Shown here in pieces: positions 9,741 to 42,690 of a stretch of DNA of 54,744 nucleotides (the first letter of the stretch is position 1; each line of letters begins with the position of its first letter). Both the position numbers and the translations under genes were made by a program. Location: the IMG/VR virus record IMGVR_UViG_3300028573_000021, positions 1-54,744 of that record; one strand, 5' to 3'. Below the pieces are notes generated by a model, which made no database searches, was not told where the DNA came from, and saw only the letters and a list, made by a program, of their open reading frames with translations. Origin of the DNA: a virus.

Positions 9741-11080
9741 TGTCCGTTTGCTCCTGCTTGGGATGATCCGCCGCCGCCCCCTGGCGCTGTCGGAAAACTG
9801 CTTCCGCCCCCTGCCCCGCCCCATAGGCTTGTTCCGGCCGAGCCGCAAGCGAAGACCGAACTCCAATAGCATCCGCCGCCGCCACCCCCGCCCCAGACTG
9901 ACGCGCCGCCGGGGCCGCCGCTTGAGCCGCCCCCGCCGCCACCCCCGCCGCCAAAGTACCCAGCCCCGCCGTTCACCCCGCCGGAATATCCGCCCGCGCC
10001 GCCGCTGATGCTTGGAGGGCCGCCGCCGCCGACTGACACCACGCTCCACGGTGCGCCGCCGTTACCGCCGAGCGTCGCTGTACCAGCCTTTCCAGGCCCG
10101 GCCTGACCGCCGCCACCGCCACCACCGAAACCGATGAACGCACCTTCGCCACCGCCACCGCCGTAAGCAGTCAGGAATGTGCCGAAACTGCTATTGCCGC
10201 CGACGCTGCCCACGTCGACGGTGCCAGCCGCGCCGCCGGCTCCAACCGTGACGGTAACAAGCGCGGGCAGAGTGCTCGTCGAAAACCATCGGTCGCTGTA
10301 GGCACCGCCGCCGCCGCCGCCCGATCCCTGGCCCGATCCTTTGCCGCCGGACACAAGCCCACCGCCACCGCCCCCTGCCCAGCACTCGGCATGAACGACG
10401 GAATTGCTCGTCACATTGGCCGGCTTGATCCATACCCCGGTCGCGGTAAACGACTGGAATATCGTCCTGTACGGCGGCCCGTTCAGTAGGTGGAAAACTT
10501 GGTTCGTGGCATCGTAAATCAGCGTCGTGACTTGGCTTGCGCTGATTTCGCCGCCGGTCAGAGACGTTGCCCCGCCGGCCACGTCCTTGAACACGTTCGC
10601 CGCCGCAAAATGCGACGTTTGCAGCGTCGTCGGACCTGTATTCGTCAGGCCGGCGACAAACGCGACCTCTTGTCCGTCCGCGCCCGTGAATTCATCGGCC
10701 GAGATGGCTTGCGCGTTGCTCGTCCCGTAGCTCGTCCCGCCCCACGACACCCCCGCGATGGCCGGGCTTGCGACGGTCTGGTCCCATACGATCGTGCCGG
10801 TGACATCCTTGAGGATTTGCCGATACGTGCCATAGCCGAAAATGATCCCGCAGCCGGCGCTATCGAGCGGCAGCGGATTGTTGTTGGCGACAAGATGATC
10901 CTTGTCCTGCCACGTCGATTTCGGCGTGACGGTTCCGGTTGCGTAGAACGTCACCGATCCATCGGCGAGCGGATATCCGGAGCCATCATAGAAGCAGTTT
11001 TTGCCGGGCGGCAGGAGTGACGCCGCGTCGGCGTGGCCGGCAAGCGCGCACAAAAGTAGGAGGGCAGCCAGCCACCTCAC
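9716..11080 (-). CDS. Glycine-rich fibre-like protein with signal peptide, copy 1
   Basis: A 454-aa protein starting at GTG 11080 (GTGA overlap). The signal peptide is VRWLAALLLLCALAGHADA. The domain that follows (DGSVTFYATGTVTPKSTWQD, then GTYRQILKDVTG) resembles fibre N-terminal domains. From about residue 220 it has WIKPANVTSNSVVHAECWAG followed by long polyglycine loops, the glycine-rich-domain type also seen in receptor-recognising adhesins. It is paralogous to the next gene upstream. A signal peptide is unusual for a tail fibre. Confidence 0.75.
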   Translation of the reverse strand: MRWLAALLLLCALAGHADAASLLPPGKNCFYDGSGYPLADGSVTFYATGTVTPKSTWQDKDHLVANNNPLPLDSAGCGIIFGYGTYRQILKDVTGTIVWDQTVASPAIAGVSWGGTSYGTSNAQAISADEFTGADGQEVAFVAGLTNTGPTTLQTSHFAAANVFKDVAGGATSLTGGEISASQVTTLIYDATNQVFHLLNGPPYRTIFQSFTATGVWIKPANVTSNSVVHAECWAGGGGGGLVSGGKGSGQGSGGGGGGAYSDRWFSTSTLPALVTVTVGAGGAAGTVDVGSVGGNSSFGTFLTAYGGGGGEGAFIGFGGGGGGGQAGPGKAGTATLGGNGGAPWSVVSVGGGGPPSISGGAGGYSGGVNGGAGYFGGGGGGGGGSSGGPGGASVWGGGGGGGCYWSSVFACGSAGTSLWGGAGGGSSFPTAPGGGGGSSQAGANGQCNVTTFP

Positions 11081-12465
11081 GGGAACACCGTCGCCTGGCA
11101 CTGGCCCGCGCCACCGGCTGCGTTGCGACCGCCGCCGCCACCAGGCTGCGAGCCGGCCGATCCACTGGCACCACCGGCCCCACCCCAGACACTGGTGCCA
11201 AGCCCACCGCCGCCGCTTGCTCCGGCCGCCGCGCCGCCGCCGCCACCCCATGTGGAGCCGCCGCCACTACCGCCTGCCGACGCGCCGCCGCTAGAGCCGC
11301 CACCACCGCCGCCGCCGCCAAAGTACCCAGCCCCGCCGGTTGCTCCAGTCGCCGCACCCGTTCCGCCGCCACCGCCAGACGGACTGGACGTTCCGGCCGC
11401 TACCAGCCAAGGTCCGCCACCCACGCCGCCCGCTGCCGCCGCACTTGCAGTTCCAGCCGCGCTTTCGCCGCCGCCACCACCGCCGCCCCATGCGGCTCCG
11501 TTACCGCCACCGCCACCGCCGTATGCGGTCAACCACGATCCAAACGTGGCATTGCTGCCTGTAGTGTTGATCGCACCACCGGCCGGAATGGTTACAGTCT
11601 CCGTCGACCCCATTGACGACGCGGCCAGCCAGCGATCGGAATAACCGCCACCACCGCCGCCGCCGCCCGTTGCACTTGCGCTGCCGCCGCCGCCCGCACC
11701 CCAGCACTCTAAATGTACACGCGAGTTCGACGTGGTGCCGCTCGGCTTCGTCCACGTCCCCGATGTGGTGAACGACTGGAAATTCGTCGTCGCCCCGGAC
11801 GCGCTGAGCGGGTTGACGATGTGGAAATGCCCGTCCGATGACGAGTAGACCATCTCCACGACATTGCTGGCGATGATCTCGCTGCCGGTCAGCGCCACCG
11901 GTCCCGACGTGGTGTCCTTGACTACTGTCGTCGCGGCGACGTTGGTTGTCGTGACCGTGGTTGCGCCGGAGTTTGTGTACCCAGCCACGAACGCGACCAC
12001 CTGACCGTCGATCGCCTGAAATTCCGACGCGGTAACGACCTGAGCGTTTGCCGAACCTGTGCTCGTGCCGCCCCACGACACGCCCGCGATCGACGGGCTC
12101 GAAACCACCTGATCCCAGATCAGATTGCCGAGGCTGTCCTTGACCTGCTCGCGGTAGCTGCCTGATCCGTAGATGACCGCGCAACCGGTCGTGCTGCTCA
12201 ACACCACAGGATTGGTGTTCGCCGTCGTCTGGTTGCTGTCCTGCCACGTCGTCTTTGGCGTCGTCGTGCTGACGATCGAAAACGTGACCGTGCCGGATTT
12301 CAGGCTCGCGCCGTTGGCGTCAAAAAAGCAGTTCTGTCCTGGCGGCAGCAAGCTCGCCGCCTCGGCCGTGGAAACCGTGAGCGCAACGATTGCCATCGCG
12401 ACCGATATGAGCCACGCTAGGGCGATGCTGCGGTTCATCATCTTCGGCCTGTTTTGTCTCGTCAT
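11077..12465 (-). CDS. Glycine-rich fibre-like protein with signal peptide, copy 2
   Basis: A 462-aa protein if begun at 12465, where AAGGGG lies about 5 bp upstream. ATG at 12540 gives an ATGA overlap and 25 more residues. A signal peptide (RSIALAWLISVAMAIVALTVSTAEA) is followed by ASLLPPGQNCFFDANG, the same junction as in the downstream paralogue (ASLLPPGKNCFYDGSG). The middle and the polyglycine C-terminal domain also match. Probably a tandem duplication that then diverged. Confidence 0.75.
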   Translation of the reverse strand: MTRQNRPKMMNRSIALAWLISVAMAIVALTVSTAEAASLLPPGQNCFFDANGASLKSGTVTFSIVSTTTPKTTWQDSNQTTANTNPVVLSSTTGCAVIYGSGSYREQVKDSLGNLIWDQVVSSPSIAGVSWGGTSTGSANAQVVTASEFQAIDGQVVAFVAGYTNSGATTVTTTNVAATTVVKDTTSGPVALTGSEIIASNVVEMVYSSSDGHFHIVNPLSASGATTNFQSFTTSGTWTKPSGTTSNSRVHLECWGAGGGGSASATGGGGGGGGYSDRWLAASSMGSTETVTIPAGGAINTTGSNATFGSWLTAYGGGGGGNGAAWGGGGGGGESAAGTASAAAAGGVGGGPWLVAAGTSSPSGGGGGTGAATGATGGAGYFGGGGGGGGSSGGASAGGSGGGSTWGGGGGAAAGASGGGGLGTSVWGGAGGASGSAGSQPGGGGGRNAAGGAGQCQATVFP

Positions 12466-20392: not shown

Positions 20393-20752
20393 TCATGCGG
20401 GATTACCGTTGGGAATGTACCACATAACCGGCAATCCGGAATAGGTGACGACAATCTGATCCCCCTGGCTCATCGGAAAAAACCCCGCTGTCTGGCCGGT
20501 CGGCGCGATCGTTTCACGGGCGCGGATCAAGTCCACCTCGCTCACGGTGCCGCCGACGATCAGGATCGCCCCCGGATGAACCGCCGTAAACGTGAACGGC
20601 GACGCGCCGACCGGCACGGCCTCATACGGCGTCGCGGCCGAGGTCAAATCGTAAAAGAAGCCGTACCATGCCGGCGACATGCGGCCGGTTTCCATGTCCA
20701 TGATCGGCTGCGACTGCGACGGGAGGTGAACTGGCGGCTTCTGGCGGGCCAT
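20393..20752 (-). CDS. Tail-region protein after the hub (gp26/gp14 position)
   Basis: A 119-aa protein, MARQKPPVHLPSQSQPIMDM, containing MSPAWYGFFYDLTSAATPYE and a C-terminal beta domain. Short proteins with a similar MSxxWYxFF element are common among phage tail or virion genes. The position after the gp10-like gene matches the needle or adhesin accessory slot of P22, but it is too short to be a typical gp26 needle. The start overlaps the hub stop by one base. Confidence 0.55.
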   Translation of the reverse strand: MARQKPPVHLPSQSQPIMDMETGRMSPAWYGFFYDLTSAATPYEAVPVGASPFTFTAVHPGAILIVGGTVSEVDLIRARETIAPTGQTAGFFPMSQGDQIVVTYSGLPVMWYIPNGNPA

Positions 20753-23004
20753 CACGCACCTGTCGGCGTGGCATCGTAGAAGATGCCGTTGAGCGCCGTG
20801 TTGATTGGCGCGGACCACGATAGCTCAAGCACGAAATCGCGCGCGAGGCCGAGGTTCGGCCACCATGGAAACTCGCCGTAGTCGCCCTCGGCCCCGAACC
20901 GCGCCGGCAGCGCGTCGCTGAAGCTGCCGCCGCGATCGTAGCTGATGCGCAGGAATATCTGCGGCTCCTGCAACAGCGGCGACGGCAATTGGTTGTTTGC
21001 GATCACCGCATTTGACAGCGCAGCCATCTGTGCCGATGTCAGCACGACACCCTGCCAGATGGTCATGAACGCCATCCGCGCGCCGTTTTGGAGCTCCAGC
21101 GCAGCGTTGCCGTCGCTCGCCAGATGCATGGTGAAGCCAGCTGCTCCGGCAGAGGCCCCCGGATAGCTCGGCGTGAGTGCCGACGCCACCCCGTTCACCA
21201 TGACAAACCCTGCGCCAGACGCAACGTCGAGGCTGATGGCAATCAGGTTCCACGCGCCGGCCACAACCGCGCCGGCAGAGAACTGGTAGATTGTCGACGA
21301 TCCGTTGAACACCTGAAACCGGACGAGACCGGCTGACGTGTACGCGATAAATCCCGCGTTCGACGCGCCGCCCTTACCGGTGCCGATGAACACGGCGGTA
21401 TTGGTGTTCGGGATGTAGAGGTTCGTAAAAATCGTGAACTGCGCGCCCGCCTGATGGATCGCGTTCATCCACGCTTCGTTGGCGCTATCGTAGGTGAACC
21501 ATTCCGTCCCGTTGAAGCCCCAATATTCGTTGAGCGACTGGCCGCCGAGCGTTCCGTTGAACGTTGGATCGTTCGATCCGGTCCCATCCGGCCCGAGATA
21601 GAAATCGTACCCGCCGCCGCTTTCGTCCTGCCACTTCTGCCCGACACCTTGCCACGACGGCAGGTTCCCAGCCTCCAGCATGAGTTTCAACCCAACGGTC
21701 AATGCCTGGCCTTGGACCAGCGCCTGGATCGACTGCGAATACGGTCCCGGCACCGATCCGGCCAGCGTGCCGCCCTGCGTGTCGGCAATCACTCGGTCCA
21801 GCCGAATGCGCTTGCCCTCGTTCAACAGATGCGGGATCGTCCGCAGCCGCGTGATCGGATTGCCGAAGTCAGTGAAGTTTGTCGGGTCAAGCTGATAGAT
21901 GTTCCCGTTCTGCCGGTCGCACGTCAGATTGAGCCCGTAGCCGAAACACCAGCTATTCGACCGGTGGCGCTCGAAACCGTTCGGCCCGGTGTAAGCCAGT
22001 TCGTGCCACTGGTTCGTCTTTAGCTCGCAAGCGAATGTGCGGTTCGCGGTTGGAAACGTCAGCACATAATAGCCGTGGCCGAGAAGCTGGTAGCAGCCGC
22101 CGATCGCATCCGAAATGACCGGAAAACCGGATATGATTGCCTCAATGCCCTTTGACGAAATCTCTTTAACCTGAAAGCTTGCATCGCCCCGCAGAACGAT
22201 CGCCTTGCCTTGCCGATCCTGCGCCAGCCAAAACACGGACAGGTCCGTTGTCGCGAGCGAATACGGCGCGGCACATCCGTGCTCGATGTAGACGCCCGGC
22301 AGCGTCGAGAACGTGAAATCCGCCGCGCCGGAATTGTACCAGACCTCCGTCGTCAGCGTTCCCGGCGTCCACAGGTTCCGGTGCATGCAGATGACGCCGG
22401 TTATCGGGTCCGGACTGCCGGTCTTGCTCGCCACGTCCAGCGGATCGAATGCCGCGTACAGGGCCGGCGCGGTGATTACGCCAGCGGTCAGATTTTCAAA
22501 CGTCACCAGCGATAGGGAAATCTGCCATTCGTTGAGGCCGGGCGTGTTGAAAATAAAGTACGTGTCCATATAGTCGACATACGTACCGCCGAGAAAATTC
22601 GGATCGTTGATCGGCGCAAACGAGTTGTCGGACATCTTGATCGCGTAGCCGACGCTCGTGCCGTCGACGATGACGATTGCCAGCCCGTTGTCTTTCATGA
22701 TGACGGGTGTCGTCTGCACCGGGATATTGCCGAGCAGCGTGTAAAAGTACGTGTTGTCGACGTAGTAGACCGCGCCGTCAACCACCTCGTAAACGTTGCC
22801 GTTCGATGCGCGGAACACGCAACGGCCGATGCCGGGCGTCGGCGGCGTGCCCTTGATCGTCAAGCCTGGCGTCGGAAAATGTGTAACCGGCGCGGGGGCC
22901 TGTTCGTCTTCATTGACTTCGGGGTAGAGATTGATCGACCGCTGCGCCGAGGCAATGATTGCGCGGGATTGGTATGCGCCGCCGAGGAGTGGAACACGTG
23001 GCAT
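20752..23004 (-). CDS. Packaged-DNA stabilisation / tail-hub protein, P22 gp10-like, with an inserted LamG-like domain
   Basis: A 750-aa protein. The N-terminus MPRVPLLGGAYQSRAIIASA followed by QRSINLYPEVN is typical of P22 gp10 hub proteins. The C-terminus PQIFLRISYDRGGSFSDALP with WWPNLGLARDFVLELSWS matches their end. Between about residues 470 and 690 lies an extra domain (GAQFTIFTNLYIPNTNTAVF, then NLIAISLDVASGAGFVMVNG) with a LamG/concanavalin-like pattern. P22 gp10 is about 470 aa, so the excess is the insertion. It plugs the portal and carries the tailspike. Confidence 0.85.
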   Translation of the reverse strand: MPRVPLLGGAYQSRAIIASAQRSINLYPEVNEDEQAPAPVTHFPTPGLTIKGTPPTPGIGRCVFRASNGNVYEVVDGAVYYVDNTYFYTLLGNIPVQTTPVIMKDNGLAIVIVDGTSVGYAIKMSDNSFAPINDPNFLGGTYVDYMDTYFIFNTPGLNEWQISLSLVTFENLTAGVITAPALYAAFDPLDVASKTGSPDPITGVICMHRNLWTPGTLTTEVWYNSGAADFTFSTLPGVYIEHGCAAPYSLATTDLSVFWLAQDRQGKAIVLRGDASFQVKEISSKGIEAIISGFPVISDAIGGCYQLLGHGYYVLTFPTANRTFACELKTNQWHELAYTGPNGFERHRSNSWCFGYGLNLTCDRQNGNIYQLDPTNFTDFGNPITRLRTIPHLLNEGKRIRLDRVIADTQGGTLAGSVPGPYSQSIQALVQGQALTVGLKLMLEAGNLPSWQGVGQKWQDESGGGYDFYLGPDGTGSNDPTFNGTLGGQSLNEYWGFNGTEWFTYDSANEAWMNAIHQAGAQFTIFTNLYIPNTNTAVFIGTGKGGASNAGFIAYTSAGLVRFQVFNGSSTIYQFSAGAVVAGAWNLIAISLDVASGAGFVMVNGVASALTPSYPGASAGAAGFTMHLASDGNAALELQNGARMAFMTIWQGVVLTSAQMAALSNAVIANNQLPSPLLQEPQIFLRISYDRGGSFSDALPARFGAEGDYGEFPWWPNLGLARDFVLELSWSAPINTALNGIFYDATPTGA

Positions 23005-29276: not shown

Positions 29277-31514
29277 CTATGCTCCTGCCTCCGCTGGCTG
29301 CACGATCGGGTCTTTCGTGTAATCCTCGCCCGATGGCGTCGAGCCGGTGGGCGGCGTCGCCCCGTTCGCCGGCTTGACGATCGGGTCTTTAGTATAATCG
29401 CCACCGGCCGCAGCGCCAGCATTCTCACCGGGCAATCCACCGCCTGGCCCCATCATCTCCTTGAGCAACTGCGACACGATCGGGCGCAACACATCAGGGC
29501 CCAGATCAGCCTGTGCATTCCCAGCCTGCTTGAGCCGGTCGCTCTCGGCGCGGTAGCGGTCGATTTCGTTCCGCGTGTCCTTGTCCTTCAGGTCGAGTTC
29601 CTGCTTCGCCAGCTTCTCCGTCATGTCGGCGAGCAAGCCTTGCAGCGACTTCAACTGAGCCTGCGCCTCCACCAGCGCCGGGCTCGGATCGTCGCCGAGA
29701 ACCTGCGGCGGGACCATCCGCTTCAGCCGCTCCGCGATCTCCTCCGCGCCGGGAAAATCCGCATTGCGGAACATCAGGTCTCCGATGACGGTGACGAGCT
29801 GCTGGTTGGCCGTCGTGATCTGGACAAAAGCGTTCCACGCTTCCTGCCGCTTGGTGTCATAACTCGGCCCGACTTCGCTATCCACCCAGTAGCGGCCGAC
29901 TTTCGGATTGAAGATAACCCACGTTTTTTCTTGGTCATCCTTCTCTTCTGCGTAGGCGAAATCCGCTGACGGATCGATACGGATCAGCGTCTCGCTGCCA
30001 TCCTCGGCCAAAATCTGCTTCAACTGCCGCCGGCTGTAAATGTGCGGCGCAACGTCGAGGATCACGTTGCCAACCTGGCGCACGGCAATCGCCAGATTGT
30101 CAATGAAATGGTACGTCGCGTTGTCGCCCTGCCGCTGCCGCTCGTTGATCGCCCGGCCCGAGACGGCATTCGTCTGCTGCCCGAAATTCTCCTCGCGCTG
30201 GCCAGACGCCATCATCAACTCTTGCTGCGCTACCATCATCCCCTTGATGTACGCCTCAGCCATTTGCGGCGGCTCGATCGGCGTCGGAGCGGGCAGCGGG
30301 TCGCCATTCTCGTTGAACGCATTGTACGGGATGAACGGATAGTTCTGCGTATTCAGCGTCCGGTAATACGTCTCAAGGTTTTCGGTCGCGCCGACCGGGA
30401 TGAACCAGCGGGATTTTGTCTGCAACGCCACCTGTTCGACGGCGTTCGAAGTCCAGAAATTGTACATCCGCTGCGCGTCCTTGAGCGCGCGCGTGTGGCC
30501 CTTGCGGTCCATCTGGCCGGCGATGACGGTTTCCTCACCGATCACCGGAATGATCGGAATGTACCGGCCCGGCCACTTGCTGCGCTCAACGATCTTGTCG
30601 GCAGCGATCTTGTACCAGTGGATTTCGTTGTCCAGTATCTCGCGCTCTTTCAGGATCGTTTTCGGATCGATGAAATCACGGATTTTCGGCGGTATCTTCG
30701 ACCACCGCGCAACGATGTACTTTTTCTTTTCGTCGTCGCCCGCGTCCGGGTTTTCCATCAGCACGAGCTTGTCGCGCTTCTGCTTCTTGACGAAATACTC
30801 GACCACGCGGACGTGATCTTGATCGATGATGCCGCCGGCCTGCGAGTTGTTGCCGAGCGTCGTCAGCGTCAGCTTGTCCTTCATCTCCGGGTATTCTTCA
30901 AGGAACTCGGTTCGCGGAACGTCGTCGAACGCAAACGCGAACCGGCTGTCAGAGCCGTCAATCTCGCTGTGATCCGGATCAAGGAAGATATTCAGCGGGT
31001 TTTTCACCCGGCGAATGAAAATCTCCTGATCGAAACTGTCGTCCGACACATAGTCCGTAACAAGGCGGATGTAGCCAAGGCCCGATTGCGTCTGAAAATC
31101 CGACGCGGTGCCGTACGCCTGCGACGCCTTGCTGATGCGCTCGATGTGGCGGACCAGCCCCTCCCAAATCTTCGCGGCCTCGAACGTCGCCTCGTCACCG
31201 ACCGGCCGGATGTGGACCGAAGGCTTGTTTTGCTTCGCGTCGTTCGTGATTTGCAGATTGTGCTGGCGAACCTTGTTGACCGTCAGGCGCGGCTTGTACC
31301 CGTTCGGATCGTCGCGCCGCTGTGACCAGAGATAGTTCGGCCACTGCCAGCCGTTGTCCGGGTCCGCGTTGGCGAACTTGGCGTCATCGATCCACCGGGC
31401 CTGCGCCGTGCTCTCCCAACTCTGGCAGCGCTGCCAGCGGGCCTTCGCCAGTTCGATGATTTTCTCATCGCCGGTGTAAAGCTCGATGGCGTTCTGTTCG
31501 GGGGTGTCGCTCAC
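29277..31514 (-). CDS. Portal protein, P22 gp1-like
   Basis: A 745-aa protein starting at GTG 31514 (GTGA with terL). The portal core includes RWQRCQSWESTAQARWIDDA, KPRLTVNKVRQHNLQITNDA, NPLNIFLDPDHSEIDGSDSR and a long coiled stem (RQGDNATYHFIDNLAIAVRQ). The size fits P22 gp1 (725 aa). It forms the dodecameric DNA gate. The C-terminus ends with two copies of DYTKDPIV about 26 residues apart, in a flexible Gly/Pro-rich tail. Confidence 0.9.
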   Translation of the reverse strand: MSDTPEQNAIELYTGDEKIIELAKARWQRCQSWESTAQARWIDDAKFANADPDNGWQWPNYLWSQRRDDPNGYKPRLTVNKVRQHNLQITNDAKQNKPSVHIRPVGDEATFEAAKIWEGLVRHIERISKASQAYGTASDFQTQSGLGYIRLVTDYVSDDSFDQEIFIRRVKNPLNIFLDPDHSEIDGSDSRFAFAFDDVPRTEFLEEYPEMKDKLTLTTLGNNSQAGGIIDQDHVRVVEYFVKKQKRDKLVLMENPDAGDDEKKKYIVARWSKIPPKIRDFIDPKTILKEREILDNEIHWYKIAADKIVERSKWPGRYIPIIPVIGEETVIAGQMDRKGHTRALKDAQRMYNFWTSNAVEQVALQTKSRWFIPVGATENLETYYRTLNTQNYPFIPYNAFNENGDPLPAPTPIEPPQMAEAYIKGMMVAQQELMMASGQREENFGQQTNAVSGRAINERQRQGDNATYHFIDNLAIAVRQVGNVILDVAPHIYSRRQLKQILAEDGSETLIRIDPSADFAYAEEKDDQEKTWVIFNPKVGRYWVDSEVGPSYDTKRQEAWNAFVQITTANQQLVTVIGDLMFRNADFPGAEEIAERLKRMVPPQVLGDDPSPALVEAQAQLKSLQGLLADMTEKLAKQELDLKDKDTRNEIDRYRAESDRLKQAGNAQADLGPDVLRPIVSQLLKEMMGPGGGLPGENAGAAAGGDYTKDPIVKPANGATPPTGSTPSGEDYTKDPIVQPAEAGA

Positions 31515-33088
31515 GACATCAGCCACGCGTCGTTGCGGCCCGGCACGACCATCGGCGGACGCCATTCCTCAACCGGCGGCAGGCCGGCGACCTCGGCCTT
31601 GTTTCGGCGGATCGATGCGGCGCGCCGATGCCATGCCATCACAATTGCGTCCCCGTCATCGGTTGAACCGCCCGTCCGCTTGCGAATTTCATCCTTGTCT
31701 TCGATCAGTATATCAGTCCCCCGCACAAGGTAGCGAGCCGTGGTCAACTGCGCCAGCAATCGCGGATCGGGCGGTAGGCAAATCCCCTCGCCGCTGTCGG
31801 GGTTGAGCGCCTCGCGAAACCGCCAATACATCTCTGCCCGCAGGTTTCGAAACCCGAGCTTGCCGTCCTTCGCCTTGTGCTCCGACTTGCGGCTGAACAC
31901 GAGTGCCGCCGCGCTGATGCCATGCTGGTGCTTCAGGTGCGACACAACACCGGTCCCCCATCCGCCCGTGCCGTCGACGGAAATATCCGCCTCGTCCCGC
32001 CGCGTTTGCACCAGCAACGCCGCGTGCTGCGACGGATCGTCCATCGCCACGCCTTTGCGTTTGATGATCGGCGCGAACCAAGCGTCCTCATGCAACGCCG
32101 CAATCGTCGTGTCGTCCGAGCCGCCCATTGCCACGTCCATCGCGAGCGCGATCATGGTCCGGTGCTTTTCGGGCGCGGCCCGCCAGCGGGACTGAGCGGC
32201 TTTCACCCACGCAGTCGGGATGACCTGCCACTCGTGATCCTCTCGGCCGGCGAGGAAATCGCCATACAGCAACTGCGACCGCAACGGCTCCGGCATGTTC
32301 TCCAGGCGCGACCGATAGCCGGTATCCTTGAGGTACGGATTGCTGTCCAGCTTAGCCGGGATGAACGTGCGGCTTTCGTGGGTGTATTTCTCGCCGTCGA
32401 CCACAGTCGCGCCAGGCCCGTTCACCCAACGCGTGCGCTGCTGCACCGTGATGCACCAGCGAAGCTCGCCCGGTCGCGCTGGATTGGGATAATCCGGGTT
32501 GAGCCAGGGGGCGAACCACTCCATCAGCCATTCGCCCTCACCACCCATCGGCGGGTTTGTGGCAATGACGACGCGCTTGCGCACTTTCGGATCGGTCGAC
32601 CGCAGCCAGCCGCACACATAGGATACCTTGTCGGCCGACAACTGCGCGCCCTCGTCAAACCCGATGAAGTCGTGCGGGCGGCCCTGCCATGTGAACTCCG
32701 CACCGGGCTTGTCCAGCGCGCCGAACTCGAGCATCCGGCCCTTGGACTTGTAAACCATATCCTGGCCGTTGTAGCCGTCGCGGGTCTTGACGATTTCAAT
32801 CAGCCGGTCCTCTGCGCCGCGCAAGTCGACATACGCGCGCCTGAAAATCACCGATCTCCGCTGCGTCGTCAGCGCCAGCCCGAGAAGCAATTCAGTCTTG
32901 CCGCCACCGGCCGCGCCGCCATACAGGAGCACGTCGGCATTCGAGATATACGCCTGCGCCTGCGGCCCGGGGTTGGGCAGCCACGCCTGGCGGAGCTTAT
33001 GCTCAGCGATGCGGGCGAGCTCCTTCCGCCGCGCCGGGTCCATTCCCGCGATCAGGTTCTCCAGATCGGCGAGGAGGTCGCCGCTCAT
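31511..33088 (-). CDS. Terminase large subunit
   Basis: A 525-aa protein starting at 33088 (ATGA). ATPase: Walker A GGAAGGGKT (residues 57-65), then RGAEDRLIEIVKTRDGYNGQ, and Walker B with DFIGFDEGAQL. RNase H-like nuclease: IALAMDVAMGGSDDTTIAAL, ISVDGTGGWGTGVVSH, and DDGDAIVMAWHRR. It drives packaging at the portal and cuts the DNA. Unlike in P22, the small terminase gene lies about 9 kb away, beyond the fibre cassette. Confidence 0.95.
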   Translation of the reverse strand: MSGDLLADLENLIAGMDPARRKELARIAEHKLRQAWLPNPGPQAQAYISNADVLLYGGAAGGGKTELLLGLALTTQRRSVIFRRAYVDLRGAEDRLIEIVKTRDGYNGQDMVYKSKGRMLEFGALDKPGAEFTWQGRPHDFIGFDEGAQLSADKVSYVCGWLRSTDPKVRKRVVIATNPPMGGEGEWLMEWFAPWLNPDYPNPARPGELRWCITVQQRTRWVNGPGATVVDGEKYTHESRTFIPAKLDSNPYLKDTGYRSRLENMPEPLRSQLLYGDFLAGREDHEWQVIPTAWVKAAQSRWRAAPEKHRTMIALAMDVAMGGSDDTTIAALHEDAWFAPIIKRKGVAMDDPSQHAALLVQTRRDEADISVDGTGGWGTGVVSHLKHQHGISAAALVFSRKSEHKAKDGKLGFRNLRAEMYWRFREALNPDSGEGICLPPDPRLLAQLTTARYLVRGTDILIEDKDEIRKRTGGSTDDGDAIVMAWHRRAASIRRNKAEVAGLPPVEEWRPPMVVPGRNDAWLMS

Positions 33089-33894
33089 TTGCCCATCGCC
33101 GTCAGTTTGTTGAACGATTGCCGTATCTGCCCGAACGTGCCCACAGCGATATCGACCGAGTAGAATGTCTTCCCGGCCGGCGAGGGCTTCGCGCCGTGCC
33201 ACACGGACCACTTCGCGACCGAACCATAGTAGCCAATCGCATACGTTGTCGCCGGGTCGGAAGATCGGATGCCCATCGTGCGCGATCCGTTCGTGATCGC
33301 AATCGGGACCGTCTTTGCGGCCATCGCTGGGGGCGGCTGCGGCTCAAGATGCCAGCCGGTCGGCGTCATGGTGTAAAACCACTTGAACGTCGCGGGCATG
33401 TACCCGGTCAGCGCCTCAAGCGCCATCTGCGAGTGCGCACCGGGCGAGTTCAGCGTCACGTCCACATGCACCACATTCGGCAGACCCTGCCAATTCATCG
33501 TGTAGGTCTGGTCAACTAGCGTATCGGACAGGACGCGGCCCTGGAATGGTTTCCAATACGCCATCTGCGTCTCGACACTGTATGCGCCTGGCGCGGTATG
33601 AGCCGACTTGACGACGCTGCTAGACAGGCCCGCGTCGGCGGCCGAGCCCGCCTGTGTCGGGTTCTCCGCCTCGCCCAGCCCGTCCCACTGCACCGCCGTC
33701 TGCATCTCGCGCCCGTGGTCGGTGGCGTCGAGGAACTGGACCCCGGCATAGGTCAGGGAGAAAACCGCGCCGCCGTACCGCGACGATGCCGTGATTTTGA
33801 TCTGGTTTGCGCCTCCGCTCGTGGCCTGCCAGAGCGTTTCGGCCGATGCGGGCGTGGCGAGCGCCAGCGCAAGGATGACTGCGATAATCCTCAC
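33085..33894 (-). CDS. Secreted beta-rich protein of the fibre cassette
   Basis: A 269-aa protein starting at GTG 33894 (GTGA overlap). A signal peptide (VRIIAVILALALATPASA) precedes ETLWQATSGGANQI. The mature part has FSLTYAGVQFLDATDHGREM, then AVQWDGLGEAENPTQAGSAA, a pattern I associate with secreted bacterial proteins of unknown function. It may be carbohydrate-related. No catalytic motif is certain. It is coupled to terL downstream. Confidence 0.6.
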   Translation of the reverse strand: MRIIAVILALALATPASAETLWQATSGGANQIKITASSRYGGAVFSLTYAGVQFLDATDHGREMQTAVQWDGLGEAENPTQAGSAADAGLSSSVVKSAHTAPGAYSVETQMAYWKPFQGRVLSDTLVDQTYTMNWQGLPNVVHVDVTLNSPGAHSQMALEALTGYMPATFKWFYTMTPTGWHLEPQPPPAMAAKTVPIAITNGSRTMGIRSSDPATTYAIGYYGSVAKWSVWHGAKPSPAGKTFYSVDIAVGTFGQIRQSFNKLTAMGK

Positions 33895-34307
33895 GGCACC
33901 CATGCCCCGAACGGATAGTCGGCCCCCTCCCACACTGGCGAAAACCGCAAATCTTGCAGCAACGCCAGCGATACGTTCGACTTGACCACCATTCCCGACG
34001 TGCGCGCCGATGCCTTGTCCCGGTTAACGCATACCTGCACCGCCGCGTGGTTGATGAGCGCAGCCGGCAGGTTCTCGCCGGAGACGGTGAAAAACCTCCC
34101 CGGCAGAAACGTGTGCGTCACGGTCGGGTTGCCGTCTGCATCCGTGCCGGCAACGTCCTGGCTGGCGCGCCACACCTGCACCTGCCCCACGACGTGATCT
34201 GCCATGAACTGGCGTACACCCTGATCGTCCAACTGCGTGTGCGCGAGGGCTTGCGCGTCCGCGAGCGCAGCTGCGAGCGAAGCGAACTTGAGGAAACAGT
34301 CTATCAT
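33891..34307 (-). CDS. Unknown protein within the fibre cassette (no signal peptide)
   Basis: A 138-aa protein, MIDCFLKFASLAAALADAQA, with GQVQVWRASQDVAGTDADGN and TFLPGRFFTVSGENLPAALI. The opening is helical and the remainder appears beta-structured. Unlike its neighbours it lacks a signal peptide. ATGA overlaps on both sides. Possibly a fibre chaperone or accessory, by position only. Confidence 0.55.
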   Translation of the reverse strand: MIDCFLKFASLAAALADAQALAHTQLDDQGVRQFMADHVVGQVQVWRASQDVAGTDADGNPTVTHTFLPGRFFTVSGENLPAALINHAAVQVCVNRDKASARTSGMVVKSNVSLALLQDLRFSPVWEGADYPFGAWVP

Positions 34308-35695
34308 GGCGTCGTCCCCGCGATGAGGCCGGCATTACTGATGCGCGTCGATGCCCAGATGGCGAGTTCTGTGATGTAGCCGTCGAATGGCTGCGTCGCG
34401 GTTTGAGCGCCAGCGCCGACATCTATTTGGGTGGGCGCCGCTGGAAGCGAAGCCGCTGCCGCCGTGACGACCGCCGCGCCGTTCAGGCTGAGAGCCTGAT
34501 CCCCGGCCGCGAATGCGCCGGCAAGCTTGAACGACGCAGACTGAGCGATGACTGCAACCGAAGTGCCGGTCGTCGCTGACCCGCTGAAGACGATCAGTAT
34601 TCCTGCGTTTCCCGTGCCCGAAATGCGGCGCAACCCGACGCGGTTGTTGGTGCTGCCATCATCGATTGTCACGATACCCTGTTGATTGGCGTAAGACGTG
34701 GGCGCGGTTGGAATGGCGTTCACATAAAGCGAATATGCTTTCCCGAGGACAGGAAACGTCGTCACCGTCACCACATCCGCCGCCCGCGTCGCCGCTGCGC
34801 TGGTCGTGCGGATCGGAGACGTGGCGAACGCGCCTAGCTCTAGCTGTGGCCAGCCGATGCGGATGGTGAAATTGATCGCCGACGTATTGTTCACCACAAA
34901 CGTCAGATTTGGCGTGGCGAATGCCGTCGTTGCCCCACCAGAAAGCGTCGGAGTCCAGGTAAACCGGGTCAACGTCGCATTGACGGATGAAACGATATTT
35001 GATCCGTCGTCGTTCTGGACCAGCGTCCCGGTATTGGTTCGTTCGGACACGCGCTGGACAAACGATGTGACGTTGGTGAAATCCCCGCCCACCAACGCAA
35101 GGAATACGCTTTGGGTCCACGTTTGCCCGGTAGTTGCGGCGATGGTCGTATTGTTGTCCATCGCTATACCAATCGCAGTTCCGGCTGACGTCCCGGAAAT
35201 CTGGATGTCGATATAGTCGATGCCGTTTTGTGTGCCTGTCCCGACGATCGTTTGTGTCAGGCCGCTCAAGGTGAGCGCCTGCCAGAAGTTCGGCCGCGTC
35301 CCCGGCGTGCCCGCCACCGCGCCCTGCATCGAGTTGTTGCGGATGCTGTTCGTCCGCGACTCCTCGATCAGCGCGCCCTTGTTCGTGACCCGCAGTTGTC
35401 CCGATGTGAACGGATACCAAGTGCCGGAATTGTCATCCTCATACGCCGTCGACGCGCGCGACACGGTGAGGAACGATTGCGGGCTGCCCGATCCAAGCCC
35501 CTGCTGCCACGCGCGCCCGTTCGCGAACTGCAGTGCCGGGCTCGGCGTCGCGCCAAACTTGCCGTAGCTCGATTGCACCCATCCCGGCACCTGCGAGGAC
35601 AGGAGCGCCCGGCGCGGGCCGACATCCGCGCCGGCAAGCGCCAGAACCGCCGCAAGCCAGAGGACGATCAGCCCTACAAGGCGCGGGAATTTCAT
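34304..35695 (-). CDS. Fibre/adhesin-like protein with signal peptide
   Basis: A 463-aa protein. The signal peptide MKFPRLVGLIVLWLAAVLAL ends near AGA-DVGPRR. The middle, FLTVSRASTAYEDDNSGTWY with GALIEESRTNSIRNNS, is the hallmark of phage fibre/head-spike domains. The C-terminal part (FKLAGAFAAGDQALSLNGAA, then FDGYITELAIWASTRIS) resembles a concanavalin/LamG-like carbohydrate-binding domain. Probably an adhesin, but the export signal is unusual. Confidence 0.7.
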   Translation of the reverse strand: MKFPRLVGLIVLWLAAVLALAGADVGPRRALLSSQVPGWVQSSYGKFGATPSPALQFANGRAWQQGLGSGSPQSFLTVSRASTAYEDDNSGTWYPFTSGQLRVTNKGALIEESRTNSIRNNSMQGAVAGTPGTRPNFWQALTLSGLTQTIVGTGTQNGIDYIDIQISGTSAGTAIGIAMDNNTTIAATTGQTWTQSVFLALVGGDFTNVTSFVQRVSERTNTGTLVQNDDGSNIVSSVNATLTRFTWTPTLSGGATTAFATPNLTFVVNNTSAINFTIRIGWPQLELGAFATSPIRTTSAAATRAADVVTVTTFPVLGKAYSLYVNAIPTAPTSYANQQGIVTIDDGSTNNRVGLRRISGTGNAGILIVFSGSATTGTSVAVIAQSASFKLAGAFAAGDQALSLNGAAVVTAAAASLPAAPTQIDVGAGAQTATQPFDGYITELAIWASTRISNAGLIAGTTP

Positions 35696-35698
35696 CGA

Positions 35699-36487
35699 CT
35701 AGAGATCCTGCAAGATTTTGATGCAAACCTGAACGTCAGTCGTCGAACCGAACTGGTTCGTCAATGACGCATTGCTGAGCAAGATGCCGTACAGCGTTGT
35801 CGCGGCAGGAGCCAGCGGCTCGCCGAGGCCGTTCGAGTAGGCCGCCGTCATCGTCCCGAGGCCGGAGTACGCGGACAAAGACACCGGGCCGCGCACCGCG
35901 AACACGTCGGCCGCGTTAATGTTTGCCGCCGCCGCATCCGTCCATGTCGTGTTACTTGGATTGCTGATGAACGGGATAAACGTAAACCCGGACGTTTCGA
36001 CCTTCTTGATGTCGACCTCGACGCCTTGGAGAATGCCCGTCCCGGTCGACGTGAAGGCGTTCGAGAACGTCAACAGCCCGCCGACGACGTAATTCGTACC
36101 GTAGCTGTTCGAGGCCGTAACGGTCGGCGTGGCACAAACGGAGACAGTCTTGCCTCCGACGTTGCCGATGTTCGCTGATCCGGCGACAAGCCCAACCGTG
36201 CTGTCATTCGAAACGGTGACGCGCGGAATGCCCGCCCCGCCCGTTCCAGTGCCAGTAACGACATTCGATCCGCCGAACTGCGATACGTTTACCGCGTTGC
36301 CGCCCGACGCGAACGTGACCGGTAAGTTGCCCGAACTGTCCGGCGCCGCACAGTGGGTGGGCGACCCCGGATCGCACACGGCGACGTAGCTGTTGATCAC
36401 ACCCGGAGCTGCAGCCCAGGCGACGGCCGCAGCGATCACCACCCCGAGGAGGCCGAGCACCGGCCAGAGTTTTCGCGCCAGTTTCAT
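35699..36487 (-). CDS. Secreted fibre-region protein
   Basis: A 262-aa protein with a signal peptide (RKLWPVLGLLGVVIAAAVAW). The mature part begins APGVINSYVAVCDPGSPTHC and has Gly/Thr/Asn-rich beta segments (NAVNVSQFGGSNVVTGTGTG), ending TDVQVCIKILQDL. Composition and position fit a fibre or adhesin. It has several cysteines, unusual for cytoplasmically assembled fibres and consistent with export. Confidence 0.6.
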   Translation of the reverse strand: MKLARKLWPVLGLLGVVIAAAVAWAAAPGVINSYVAVCDPGSPTHCAAPDSSGNLPVTFASGGNAVNVSQFGGSNVVTGTGTGGAGIPRVTVSNDSTVGLVAGSANIGNVGGKTVSVCATPTVTASNSYGTNYVVGGLLTFSNAFTSTGTGILQGVEVDIKKVETSGFTFIPFISNPSNTTWTDAAAANINAADVFAVRGPVSLSAYSGLGTMTAAYSNGLGEPLAPAATTLYGILLSNASLTNQFGSTTDVQVCIKILQDL

Positions 36488-36510
36488 CGGTCACTCCATT
36501 CTGTAATGCA

Positions 36511-36550
36511 GCGGGCGGCGGATGGGATGATGGGGTCTACCGCCGCCCGC
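36511..36550 (-). other. Intergenic hairpin
   Basis: Perfect 11-bp inverted repeat GCGGGCGGCGG (36511-36521) and CCGCCGCCCGC (36540-36550) with an 18-nt loop, between two secreted-protein genes. No T-run follows on the minus strand, so it could be an attenuator, a processing site or mRNA-stabilising structure rather than a simple terminator. Confidence 0.6.
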
Positions 36551-36587
36551 GCCTTCCGCAGCCGTGTGGTACCAGCCGCAGGTTCAG

Positions 36588-37631
36588 TTATCCGCCCGAC
36601 CGGGCGACGCAAACATAGTCGGCAAGATTGCCCGACGTGGACGTCTGCGTCAGGGTCAGCGCCGTATTGCTCACCGTGTAGGACTGCGAGGCCAGCGGCG
36701 TCGCCCGCCAGGTCACGAGACAGATCGGCGCTGTGACGAATGCGTATGCCGCGCCTGTCGTCGCAAACGTCAGCACGCAACCGGTCGCGGTCGTGCCCAT
36801 CGTCACGGTTCCGGCCGTGTTCGACCCGACAACAGTCGGCGATCCGCCGCCGCACGACGTGAGGACAGGCGGAACCGCTCCGCCGCCGATGTGAGCCTCA
36901 CCCGCGTTGATGATGCCAGAGCCCTTCGGCGTCAGAGCCAGCGCGATATTCGTATCGGTCCCGACCGCCGAGACAGTGACCGTGCCGGGGGTGCCCGTGA
37001 CGCCGCCCGCAATGTTGACCTGATCGACCTGAGACGCGGCAGTCGTGACCTTCAGCGACGAGGTTGCGGCAGTCGTGCCACCGACCGAAACGGTCCCGGT
37101 CCCGGTGACGCCGACTTCAAGCCCGAGATTGCTGTCCGCGCCCGACCCACCGCTGCTGATGGTCGGCACGGTTCCGGTCGCCTTGCCAGTCACGACGACA
37201 TGGTTGACCGCGCTCGCCGTGGTCGGAGCCTCGAGACTGGCCGTCGCGCAAGTCGTGCCGCCAAGGCAGGCGCCACCAGTGCCCTTGCCGGCCATAACGA
37301 TACCGATGTTCGTATCGGCACTCGCGCCACCAACGGTCTGCGTCGGCTCCACACCGGTTGCGCCAGCCGTGAGGACCATGGCGTTGACGTTGGGAGCCGC
37401 GCCGCCGATCGTCTGCGGGCTGCCGACAGGCGTGGTCCCGGCCGCTTGGTCAATCAGCGTATTCGTCGCCGTGACCATGACGTTGAGGTCAGTGCCGTCG
37501 ATCAGGCGATAGCCCGGCAGAAACGCCGCCCCGGTGGAAAAGCTCATGTGCGCGGCGAGGGCCACGCCCCCGACCATCGCAATAGCGAGCGCCGCAAGGC
37601 CGGCGCGACTGAAAAGACGAGAGATGTTCAT
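36588..37631 (-). CDS. Secreted repetitive fibre-like protein
   Basis: A 347-aa protein with a signal peptide (FSRAGLAALAIAMVGGVALA). The mature part has degenerate beta repeats: ADTNIGIVMAGKGTG, ADSNLGLEVGVTGTG and TDTNIALALTPKGSGIINAG. Such DTNIxLxLxPKG repeats are typical of phage fibre shafts. The C-terminus has cysteine pairs and ends NLADYVCVARSGG. Likely an exported fibre. Confidence 0.68.
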   Translation of the reverse strand: MNISRLFSRAGLAALAIAMVGGVALAAHMSFSTGAAFLPGYRLIDGTDLNVMVTATNTLIDQAAGTTPVGSPQTIGGAAPNVNAMVLTAGATGVEPTQTVGGASADTNIGIVMAGKGTGGACLGGTTCATASLEAPTTASAVNHVVVTGKATGTVPTISSGGSGADSNLGLEVGVTGTGTVSVGGTTAATSSLKVTTAASQVDQVNIAGGVTGTPGTVTVSAVGTDTNIALALTPKGSGIINAGEAHIGGGAVPPVLTSCGGGSPTVVGSNTAGTVTMGTTATGCVLTFATTGAAYAFVTAPICLVTWRATPLASQSYTVSNTALTLTQTSTSGNLADYVCVARSGG

Positions 37632-37656
37632 GGCGTCAGCCTCTTGGGTTTGGGAG

Positions 37657-37721
37657 GGACGGCGGCAAGGGGAGGAAACTCACCGCCGTCCCGATCGTGG
37701 CCTAGGGAGGAAGCTTAGGCC
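37657..37721 (-). other. Two intergenic hairpins
   Basis: GGGACGGCGG (37657-37666) pairs with CCGCCGTCCC (37683-37692), a perfect 10-bp stem. GGCCTA (37699-37704) pairs with TAGGCC (37716-37721). Both lie just after the fibre gene at 37728 and before the one at 36588, as seen also at 36511. They may act as partial terminators or processing sites between the secreted-protein genes. Confidence 0.55.
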
Positions 37722-37727
37722 GCCGAA

Positions 37728-38963
37728 TTACAGGTCCGAACTCAGCTTGATCACGCCAGAGCCGCCATTGTCGATCAGCGCGGTCGCGTTGCCGGCGGTC
37801 AGGTTCGCCGACACGGTGCAATCGACCGTGATGCTGTTCGTGGTGCCCGACGAAGTGACGGTGCCGAGCGCCGTGCAAGCCTGCGCCGTGCCGTCCGACT
37901 TGGCCGCCGCAAAACCCGCCGTGTAGGTGCCGGTCGGCGCGGCCCGCATCGTCACAGGAAGCTTGACGAAGATGCGCGCGTTCGTGGTCGTGGTCGCCTC
38001 GCCGGTCGCCCGCATCGGGCCGGCGGCACCCTCATCGAACTCGATGTAGTAGCGCTGGGCGCGGAGGGTTTCGAGTTCGATCGGCAGCCGCTGATAGCCC
38101 GGTCCCAGAGTGGGCTGGCCGTTCAGGGCCGACGCGGACAGGATCGTCTTGGTGAGCGTCACACCCGCCAGTTCGAGCCAGTCATTCGCACCGGCAGTGC
38201 CCACCGGAGTGTAGCAGAACTTGACGCCGATCTGCTTGGCCGTCGCCGGAACCGCCACCGCGACGGTATAGCGAGTCCAGGTCGTGCTGATCGCCGTGTT
38301 GGCCTGGTACGTGTTCGCGTATCCGGTCCATCCGCCGGCAAACAGGTTCGTGGTCGAACCGTCGACGCCGGTCCCGGTCGCGATCGTGACCTGCACGTTG
38401 TTCGACGCGGCGGAGAAGTTCGCGCCGGCCAGAGCGTGGAACGAGAGAACCGCAGTCCCACTCTGGAACTGATAGCTGTCGGCACTCTCGATCGTCTGTG
38501 CCATGCAGATCGCGTTGATGTCCGCGTTGCTGGACTTGCGCTGGAACCGCAGCGACGCCCCGTAGCCGGCAGTCACGTCGGTGGAGCCCGTCTGGCGCGA
38601 CACGTTGATTGCCGAACCGGCCGCACCGAGGTTCGCCCACCGGTCGGCCCAGTAGGTGACCGTGCTGCTGATGTCGCCCGAGGTGCCGGTGCCGCGCTGC
38701 CATGGGCAGGTGCCGAAGTCGCCGCACACCAGCACGTTGTTCACCGCCGCAGCCGACGACTGCATCTGCGCCGTGGTGATGTACTCGGTCGCCGGATTGA
38801 TGCCCTGCGACGCCTGCGTGTCGGCCGGCATGCTTTCGAGCCCGGTCAGCGGCAGGGTCGCGGTCGGAAGCCCGTAGAACAGGCCGATGGCCGACGCCTG
38901 CGAGACGGCAGCCAGAGACAGAAGCGCCGCCACCGCGACAGCGCCGAAATGACGGAGTTTCAT
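37728..38963 (-). CDS. Fibre-like protein with signal peptide and carbohydrate-binding-type domain
   Basis: A 411-aa protein with a signal peptide (VAVAALLSLAAVSQASA). Then LTGLESMPADTQASQGINPA, an N-terminal motif common in phage structural proteins, and NNVLVCGDFGTCPWQRGTGT with YWADRWANLGAAGSAINVSR. This resembles CBM-like fibre domains (the N-G-D-F-x-x-W-Q-R-G pattern). The C-terminal segment is beta-rich. Likely an adhesin. Confidence 0.7.
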   Translation of the reverse strand: MKLRHFGAVAVAALLSLAAVSQASAIGLFYGLPTATLPLTGLESMPADTQASQGINPATEYITTAQMQSSAAAVNNVLVCGDFGTCPWQRGTGTSGDISSTVTYWADRWANLGAAGSAINVSRQTGSTDVTAGYGASLRFQRKSSNADINAICMAQTIESADSYQFQSGTAVLSFHALAGANFSAASNNVQVTIATGTGVDGSTTNLFAGGWTGYANTYQANTAISTTWTRYTVAVAVPATAKQIGVKFCYTPVGTAGANDWLELAGVTLTKTILSASALNGQPTLGPGYQRLPIELETLRAQRYYIEFDEGAAGPMRATGEATTTTNARIFVKLPVTMRAAPTGTYTAGFAAAKSDGTAQACTALGTVTSSGTTNSITVDCTVSANLTAGNATALIDNGGSGVIKLSSDL

Positions 38964-41548: not shown

Positions 41549-41987
41549 CGGATGCCTCCCGCTCCGGCGCAGCCTTGTCCTGGCCGGCGAGATGATCGGC
41601 AGCGGCTTGCGCGAGGCCGCCAGCGCGCGGCTCCGGGTTGAGCCGGTCCAGAACCGTGCGCGCGTCACGCGCGATCATCGCGTTGGCTTCCTTGCCGATC
41701 ATCGCCACGAGTTCGTCAATCGCCCTGGCCGTCGCGATCCGATCGTACTTGTGTCCCGCCAAGCCGTTGACGATCGCCGTAACCCTATCTCTCACCGTGT
41801 CCATCGGATCTCCGTCAATCTCCACGCTTAGCGCGCGACCCAAAGCCGTCTCATCGAACCTTTGTTTGATCCGCGCCTGCATTTGCCGCCAAAACTCCCG
41901 CGTCTCCGGCGACCACTCTGGCCGATCCGGTCGGAAGGCCCGCGCCGCCACAGGATTAGCCGCAAACGATCGGGCGCAGTTCGTCAC
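41532..41987 (-). CDS. Unknown helical protein next to terS
   Basis: A 151-aa protein, MTNCARSFAANPVAARAFRP, mainly helical and charged (EFWRQMQARIKQRFDETALG, ATARAIDELVAMIGKEANAM). ATGA overlap with the small terminase upstream; its end overlaps the HNH gene by 17 bp. No recognised motif. Placement suggests a packaging accessory, without direct evidence. Confidence 0.55.
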   Translation of the reverse strand: MTNCARSFAANPVAARAFRPDRPEWSPETREFWRQMQARIKQRFDETALGRALSVEIDGDPMDTVRDRVTAIVNGLAGHKYDRIATARAIDELVAMIGKEANAMIARDARTVLDRLNPEPRAGGLAQAAADHLAGQDKAAPEREASGVGDG

Positions 41988-42517
41988 ATCACGTCTCCTT
42001 CCGGCGCATCGGCCAGCGTCCCCTCGATCTGCCGCGCGCGCAGCTCCTCCACGATCAAGCCGAGTGCCTTGCTCATGTCTCGGGGATTGGCTTCGACCAC
42101 GAGCGGATTATCGCGATCGCCCGAAAGCTCAAGCCGGTCGCCAAACTGCTTCGGCAGCATCTTGCTGAGCAGCCATTTACGCGCGTCAACGCGCAAACGC
42201 GATCGGTTGATGTGCTCGTGATTGGCAACCGGAGTGATTAGTCCCGCCTCGGCCTGGCGCTCCATCCAGTCGTTGCTGCCATCGTCGGCAATCTCAATGA
42301 TTTCCTCGGCCCAACGAAGCGCGCGAGCCTGGTTGGCTTGCGCGTAAAGGGCAGCAAAACCGCCCTCGTTGACGATCGACCACCGCCTGATTGTCGGAGG
42401 CGGAGGCATATCCTTGTCGCGACTGATTTCGCGGAGGCTCAGTCCGGCGGCAATCTGCTCGCAGATTTTGGCGGCGATTTCCGGAGTGTAAGTGAGCGGT
42501 CGGCCGCGAGAGGCCAT
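41984..42517 (-). CDS. Terminase small subunit
   Basis: A 177-aa protein, MASRGRPLTYTPEIAAKICE with IAAGLSLREISRDKDMPPPP and TIRRWSIVNEGGFAALYAQA. This helix-turn-helix and the following AEEIIEIADDGSNDW, with a later DARKWLLSKMLPKQFGDRLE, match phage small-terminase proteins. It recognises the packaging site. It is the first gene of the leftward late operon, about 100 bp from the promoter at 42621-42649, and lies about 9 kb from terL. Confidence 0.88.
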   Translation of the reverse strand: MASRGRPLTYTPEIAAKICEQIAAGLSLREISRDKDMPPPPTIRRWSIVNEGGFAALYAQANQARALRWAEEIIEIADDGSNDWMERQAEAGLITPVANHEHINRSRLRVDARKWLLSKMLPKQFGDRLELSGDRDNPLVVEANPRDMSKALGLIVEELRARQIEGTLADAPEGDVM

Positions 42518-42620
42518 CGGTCTTTCTGGCGTGTTGTCGCCGGGTCGGAGATAGCCGGGGGACCGTTGGCGTCTTCCCCGACCCGGCGATGGTGGCGTGG
42601 TGACTGAACCCCACCACGCG

Positions 42621-42649
42621 AGAATGGCGGCGTTTGGCGGTTCTGTCAA
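42621..42649 (-). promoter_or_regulatory. Leftward promoter of the small-terminase/late operon
   Basis: On the minus strand TTGACA (42649-42644) is followed by a 17-bp spacer and CATTCT (42626-42621), a good sigma-70-type match. The plus-strand spacer contains GCGTTTGGCGG (42630-42640), close to the TTAG-type operators but one base shorter. The transcript would start near 42614, about 100 nt before terS. Confidence 0.6.
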
Positions 42650-42690
42650 TCGGCACGACACAAGGGCGCGTGACTGATCCGGGGATATTC

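Follow-up and report, generated by a model that had tools for sequence, protein, structure and literature searches.

Tailed phages are assumed to fold their fibres, and to attach them, within the reducing cytoplasm of the host. Phages also encode exported proteins with known roles, among them signal-arrest-release (SAR) endolysins, spanins, Lom, and the Llp/Cor exclusion lipoproteins, and the adsorption protein of filamentous phages, pIII, is Sec-exported, disulfide-bonded in the periplasm, anchored in the inner membrane and assembled there. Here we analyze the virus record IMGVR_UViG_3300028573_000021 (hereafter the window: the whole stretch of 54,744 bases, 64% G+C), in which six contiguous open reading frames (ORFs), all on the minus strand, lie directly upstream of terL. 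We call these the cassette and name its proteins by their lower coordinates. Five of the six begin with a Sec-type signal peptide (SP), and in this phage and dozens of relatives a predicted cleavable export signal fronts receptor-binding-type proteins. In the literature that we searched on exported phage fibres, we found nothing relevant and no description of such export, and two-compartment fibre assembly is not described there for tailed phages.

Compared by description, the cassette proteins would share export and disulfides with pIII, but look soluble and belong to a tailed double-stranded DNA phage. They would use the same host export route as SAR endolysins, spanins, Lom, and Llp/Cor, but differ in their cleavable AxA-type sites and fibre-type domains. 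None of the five has a lipobox cysteine at +1, as the Llp/Cor type would, or another surface anchor; a Pfam scan of the five gave no significant domain, hence no lysis-enzyme domain, which together with the AxA-type sites sets them apart from SAR endolysins. A further likeness is to Rcc01080, the head-spike fibre of the Rhodobacter capsulatus gene transfer agent (RcGTA) and a capsule-binding adhesin: residues 109-306 of 34304 match the NCBIfam model NF048003 (GTA_spike_fiber) at 58.9 bits against a cut-off of 36. Unlike Rcc01080, 34304 has a Sec signal and lacks the IALGLGLGL docking peptide; because its N-terminus, MKFPRLVGLIVLWLAAVLALAGA followed by DVGPRRALL, has no Leu-Gly docking peptide from residue 2, we class it as a carrier of the domain only and not as a GTA spike fibre. 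The distal domains of 37728 and 34304 also match the fibre C-termini phrog_4492 (tail fibre C-terminus, E 1e-23) and phrog_5939 (tail protein, E 1e-17), respectively, and BFVD matches include BcepNazgul and cyanophage fibres. The known examples are mostly the ends of long fibres, whereas here they belong to short proteins that open with a signal peptide.

Signal peptides and fibre-type domains

Signal peptides were scored with a home-made scorer (not SignalP) that combines n-region charge, hydrophobic core, and the -3/-1 rule, with a threshold that ranged from 3.8 to 4.4 from script to script. At 4.2 it found 15/26 known exported E. coli proteins and 0/70 cytosolic ones (96 proteins). A sequence-only reading of the window had proposed five ORFs with N-terminal Sec signals, and all five were recovered in place with scores of 4.60-5.23 (Table 1); each has the charged n-region, hydrophobic core, and AxA-type c-region of Sec/signal peptidase I substrates. 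No internal 45-residue stretch of any of the five equals its own N-terminal score, and shuffled N-termini equalled the real score in 0, 0, 6, 53, and 10 of 2000 trials for 33085, 34304, 35699, 36588, and 37728, respectively. Judged alone, 36588 has the weakest signal, yet signal-bearing homologues of it exist. Every start codon of every ORF in the window was scored; apart from fib1, fib2, and three minor candidates described below, the further scores of at least 4.2 fell in plus-strand or overlapping frames, which we took as non-genes. Predicted mature N-termini in this phage include IGLFYGLPTATLPLTGLESMPADTQ, AHMSFSTGAAFLPGYR, and DVGPR. These features argue strongly that the cassette signal peptides are genuine, Sec-type, and cleavable.

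At least three of the five are fibre- or adhesin-type proteins, as the same reading had held. The repeats of 36588 are readable in its sequence (DTNIGIVMAGKG, DSNLGLEVGVTG, and DTNIALALTPKG), and 34304 carries the NF048003 domain. For 37728, the WQRG protein, the phrog_4492 match is joined by an AlphaFold2 model (predicted local distance difference test score, pLDDT, 73) that matches carbohydrate-binding module (CBM) folds in the PDB and CenC-like/tail fibre proteins in BFVD; as modeled, the protein is a CBM-like fibre tip. 35699 is tied to fibres by its membership of the cassette alone, and no fibre homology was found for 33085.

The description of a cassette of five stood as far as the five signal-bearing proteins go, but was too narrow, because fibres of the same phage at the canonical position, fib1 and fib2 (9716-12438), are also predicted to be exported. 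Their signals stand ahead of the motif SLLPPG and are as good as those of the cassette. fib1 matches phrog_863 and phrog_26190, and fib2 is about 47-50% identical to it over the aligned part.

Grafted signals and paired cysteines in relatives

Single-protein searches returned a near-identical contig, L001 (relatives carry L numbers), and an SP-bearing homologue of 37728 at 46% identity (L002). With a degenerate DNA pattern for ExIPADTxxxxGxxP, 66 viral contigs were retrieved, in which 45/51 distinct proteins scored as SP-bearing; among the remaining six, L037 is SP-bearing on full-gene reading, L023 opens much like a signal but its n-region is neutral, and L003, L022, L038, and L041 are SP-less. 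Patterns built on the modules of 35699 and 36588 added more relatives; one contig retrieved by the 36588 pattern, L101, held no family ORF and was discarded as a chance match. The patterns were fixed after the first homologues had been inspected, and the sample was gathered by motif with many loci fragmentary, so that the frequencies below are not population estimates. In most relative loci the portal or head genes resemble those of the window, which makes these phages P22-like podoviruses. Their terminases are of two types or more, and comparable cassettes lie upstream of terL in related uncultivated P22-like phages. Signals front fibre modules in several families, across two terminase types.

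Comparison with these homologues showed that the signals recur and that they are grafted onto modules that also occur signal-free. Four families were found in both forms: TNGLP, PGxRLIDGTxLN, head-spike (34304), and LLPNG. SP-less TNGLP proteins begin M-[AS]-G-[FIMW], about one residue from the predicted cut of SP-bearing ones (such as A-AG[LFY], hyphen at the cut), and SP-less members of the other three families start within several residues of the predicted cleavage. Homologues of 36588 occur with a signal (L040, L056, L092, L098, and L104) and without one (L003, L086-L091, L093-L097, and L099), and SP-bearing homologues of 35699 were found in L049, L055, L064, and L083-L085. For 34304, an SP-less homologue lies in L004 (9974-11281), followed there by a 122-aa counterpart (11278-11646) of the SP-less cassette gene 33891-34307, and a signal-fronted GTA head-spike-fibre domain also occurs in the phage of L050.

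Copies with and without signals differ in position. In the 36588 family, the SP-bearing copies that a marker places are all upstream of terL or portal (3/3). Of the 15 SP-less copies so placed, 13 sit in the virion-assembly block between Ad3 and Hc3, and two are upstream of terL/portal or terS. This rule is weaker for TNGLP, with 32 SP-bearing copies upstream of terL or portal and likewise three SP-less ones, and it fails for LLPNG, whose members fib1 and fib2 are predicted to be exported from the canonical fibre locus, where the L093 homologue of fib1 (1672-3423) is SP-less.

Because an export signal stands ahead of fibre-type proteins, folding in the host periplasm with disulfide bonds is expected. 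Among SP-bearing members of the TNGLP, 36588, and 35699 families, mature parts with cysteines hold an even number in 57/57 cases, although the members are related and their counts are therefore not independent events. SP-less phage genes of the same loci have even counts in 117/255 cases (46%) and SP-less members of the 36588 family in 2/7; for E. coli controls the figures are 13/13 (exported) and 33/56 (cytosolic). When TNGLP was collapsed at 60% identity, 25/25 clusters were even, 22 of them with cysteines. In an alignment of the 37728 family (19 members), Cys153 and Cys250 are invariant and some cysteine columns are gained or lost as matched pairs; shuffling the columns gave 19/19 even in none of 20,000 trials. 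Exceptions outside the three families are the LLPNG proteins of L036 and L059 (SP-bearing, three cysteines each) and the product of 6584-6961 (five). The earlier remark that the cysteines fit export thus gained support: the all-even counts, hard to explain without export, strongly suggest real export and oxidative folding of cassette-type proteins.

Proposed destination of the exported proteins

We propose, with a probability of roughly 45%, that these fibre-type proteins are exported, folded in the periplasm, and attached to virions at lysis. The host Sec pathway would export the adhesins of this P22-like phage, signal peptidase would trim them at the start of a virion-type N-terminal module, and the trimmed adhesins would fold in the periplasm, forming disulfides if they contain cysteines. 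Once the envelope is opened at lysis, finished fibres would meet completed virions and dock via their N-terminal modules, and the docked fibres or spikes would give the particle polysaccharide binding. We favor docking at lysis because the modules, domains, and chaperones are of virion-fibre type (Peptidase_S74, a fibre intramolecular chaperone, is found on two exported relatives, L056 3149-4063 and L054 10822-11739) and because the fibres at the canonical locus are predicted exports too, so that recognisable fibres would otherwise be missing from the virion. In RcGTA, the head-spike-fibre domain belongs to a capsule-binding virion spike (PMC7296036, PMC10218006), and mass spectrometry has proven that proteins encoded between terS and terL of phage 7-7-1 belong to the virion (PMC3517404). 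Docking at lysis would be a new assembly route, letting phages carry disulfide-stabilised adhesins. The broader claim, that a large uncultivated podovirus group builds virion fibres outside the cytoplasm and adds disulfide-bonded adhesins only at lysis, we advance a shade more tentatively.

Several points weigh against docking at lysis. Capsid assembly is cytoplasmic, which leaves lysis as the earliest moment for docking. The 7-7-1 structural proteins from the terS-terL interval have no signals, and we are aware of no homology linking them to the cassette proteins. Neither a virion proteome nor a cultured member was found for this phage group. The product of 33891-34307 carries no signal, even though its gene and that of the exported 34304 overlap, and the head-closure protein (20752-23004, minus strand) has a long extra region (residues about 410-680) with no family match and a lectin-like look, which could be an adsorption domain built in the cytoplasm. 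Finally, Wzy_C matches in 9/40 records (five above cut-off), eight of them near a TNGLP gene judging by coordinates, place such genes beside the cassette in about eight phages and hint at an envelope role.

That hint bears on the main rival, which we consider rather unlikely: the proteins would be fibre-derived but no longer virion parts, and would stay periplasmic, reach the surface, or be shed at lysis, masking or saturating polysaccharide receptors. Such envelope action, with the same rather low likelihood, would serve superinfection exclusion or free progeny from debris, and such proteins would be a new kind of exclusion factor or decoy that derives from fibres. Besides the O-antigen ligase-like Wzy_C genes, it would account for lectin/CBM-type C-termini on exported proteins and for Tat-like signals on some cassette proteins (L092 2272-2937, L104 4872-6029, L110 17101-17514, and L042 4216-4791), which suggest selection for export itself; L109 and L110, moreover, hold an SP-less 36588-type gene in the virion block and, upstream of terL, an SP-bearing gene of TNGLP type. 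However, the exported N-terminal modules are common to proteins encoded in the virion-assembly block, exported members retain the fibre chaperone domain, the canonical-locus fibres of the window phage are exported as well, and the five cassette proteins lack a lipobox or other surface anchor. Export and oxidative folding have good sequence support, whereas both destinations are inferences; on balance we lean towards docking at lysis over envelope action.

Two further accounts fare worse. The proteins could be morons: adhesins secreted to the advantage of the host cell rather than for the lytic programme. The allele exchange at 33085, a protein without a phage-family match, fits this, but the cassette sits between terS and terL, its proteins have phage fibre homology, and the TNGLP family went unmatched across 385 bacterial genomes from a single class (that of L075, around a Sphingomonadaceae metagenome-assembled genome), whereas the same query found 20/20 viral records; we consider it improbable. 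Least probable of all is that the hydrophobic N-termini are virion-docking peptides and not signals, as in the RcGTA head fibre, whose hydrophobic N-terminal stretch IALGLGLGL (residues 2-10) inserts into the pentamer at the base of the spike (PMC7296036). The GTA spike-fibre domain of 34304 invites the comparison. In the TNGLP family, however, a net charge of +2 or +3 precedes the core in 42/44 members and alanine occupies -1 in 43/44 (sites that the scorer itself favors), and similarity in the signal region is 0.44, against 0.35 for shuffled controls and 0.56 for the module. SP-less homologues manage without the segment, and the even-cysteine rule requires export.

Neighbouring genes and minor candidates

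On the minus strand, reading right to left, terS is followed by small genes and an HNH endonuclease, the cassette (38963-33085), and terL, and downstream of terL by portal, scaffold, major head protein, head-tail adaptor Ad3, head closure Hc3, ejection proteins, fib1, and fib2. The top named-phage matches of TerL are 40-43% identical (Acidovorax AP1, Bordetella BPP-1, and Caulobacter phages).

Table 1. Features of the window. Start codons and signals are predicted; the signal column gives position, SP score, and cut (hyphen); "exported" means predicted to be exported.
Feature	Position	Strand	Length	Signal	Other sequence features	Cysteines
37728, exported fibre protein 1	37728-38963	-	411 aa	codons 1-25 (38889-38963); 4.88; ASA-IG	N-terminal module LTGLESMPADTQASQGINPATE, CBM-like domain, fibre-tip C-terminus	6 in mature part
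36588, exported fibre protein 2	36588-37631	-	347 aa	37554-37631; 4.60; ALA-AH	PGYRLIDGTDLN module, three DTNIxLxLxPKG-type repeats	6
35699, exported protein 3	35699-36487	-	262 aa	36413-36487; 5.07; AWA-AA	VAVCDPGSPTHCAAP module	4
34304, exported head-spike-fibre-like protein	34304-35695	-	463 aa	35627-35695; 5.23; AGA-DV	GPRRALL, RASTA/IEESRTN	0
33891, protein without signal	33891-34307	-	138 aa	none; 1.75	overlaps both neighbouring genes	
33085, exported orphan protein	33085-33933	-	272 aa from ATG 33903	33841-33903; 5.23; ASA-ET	allele-exchange locus	0
fib1, exported fibre-like protein	11077-12438	-	453 aa from ATG 12438	12358-12438; 4.89	canonical tail-fibre locus; SLLPPGQNCFFDANG module, Gly-rich C-terminus	4
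fib2, exported fib1 paralogue	9716-11080	-	454 aa from GTG 11080	11024-11080; 4.91		6
terL	31511-33211	-			phrog_979; directly downstream of cassette	
terS	41984-42661	-			phrog_1482; upstream of cassette	

The start of 33085 is possibly ATG 33903 instead of GTG 33933. Relative to L001, DNA identity is 100% upstream and 63-85% in the mature gene (33085-33850), with the break just after the signal-peptide codons, a pattern that indicates local allele exchange of the mature part; L001 also carries an extra 89-aa ORF ahead of terL. 33085 has no family in Pfam, PHROGs, NCBIfam, or PADLOC and no PDB sequence match. Its AlphaFold2 model, from two sequences, reached pLDDT 31, and the protein may resemble mutarotase-like proteins. 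In the 385 bacterial genomes it gave two weak matches only, judged to be chance.

Searches of named phages gave no match for 36588, 35699, 33085, the TNGLP module, L049 1113-1994, or L058 5841-8939, nor did they turn up any close relative of a cassette protein. A scan of genome contigs with an alignment gave no match, and the nine matches of a DNA-pattern scan of genome contigs were judged to be chance.

Multi-membrane Wzy_C (O-antigen ligase-like) genes stand beside the exported TNGLP gene in L039, L062, L067, L071, L110, and L112, and could change the host O-antigen or glycosylate the exported fibres. L109 2465-3331 (minus strand), in the virion-block interval of the phage of L091, encodes a putatively exported protein with an outer-membrane beta-barrel look and no Pfam family. 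Just after fib2, 9396-9740 (minus strand) encodes an RlpA-like transglycosylase (TIGR00413, PF03330) that is another exported candidate and possibly a lysis or wall-remodelling gene of the RlpA lytic transglycosylase family. Two more exported candidates on the minus strand, with look-alikes in L063 and L109, are a small lipoprotein with a LAGC lipobox (8169-8480) and a small cysteine-rich protein (6584-6961; WFKSLMQPNGGASCC).

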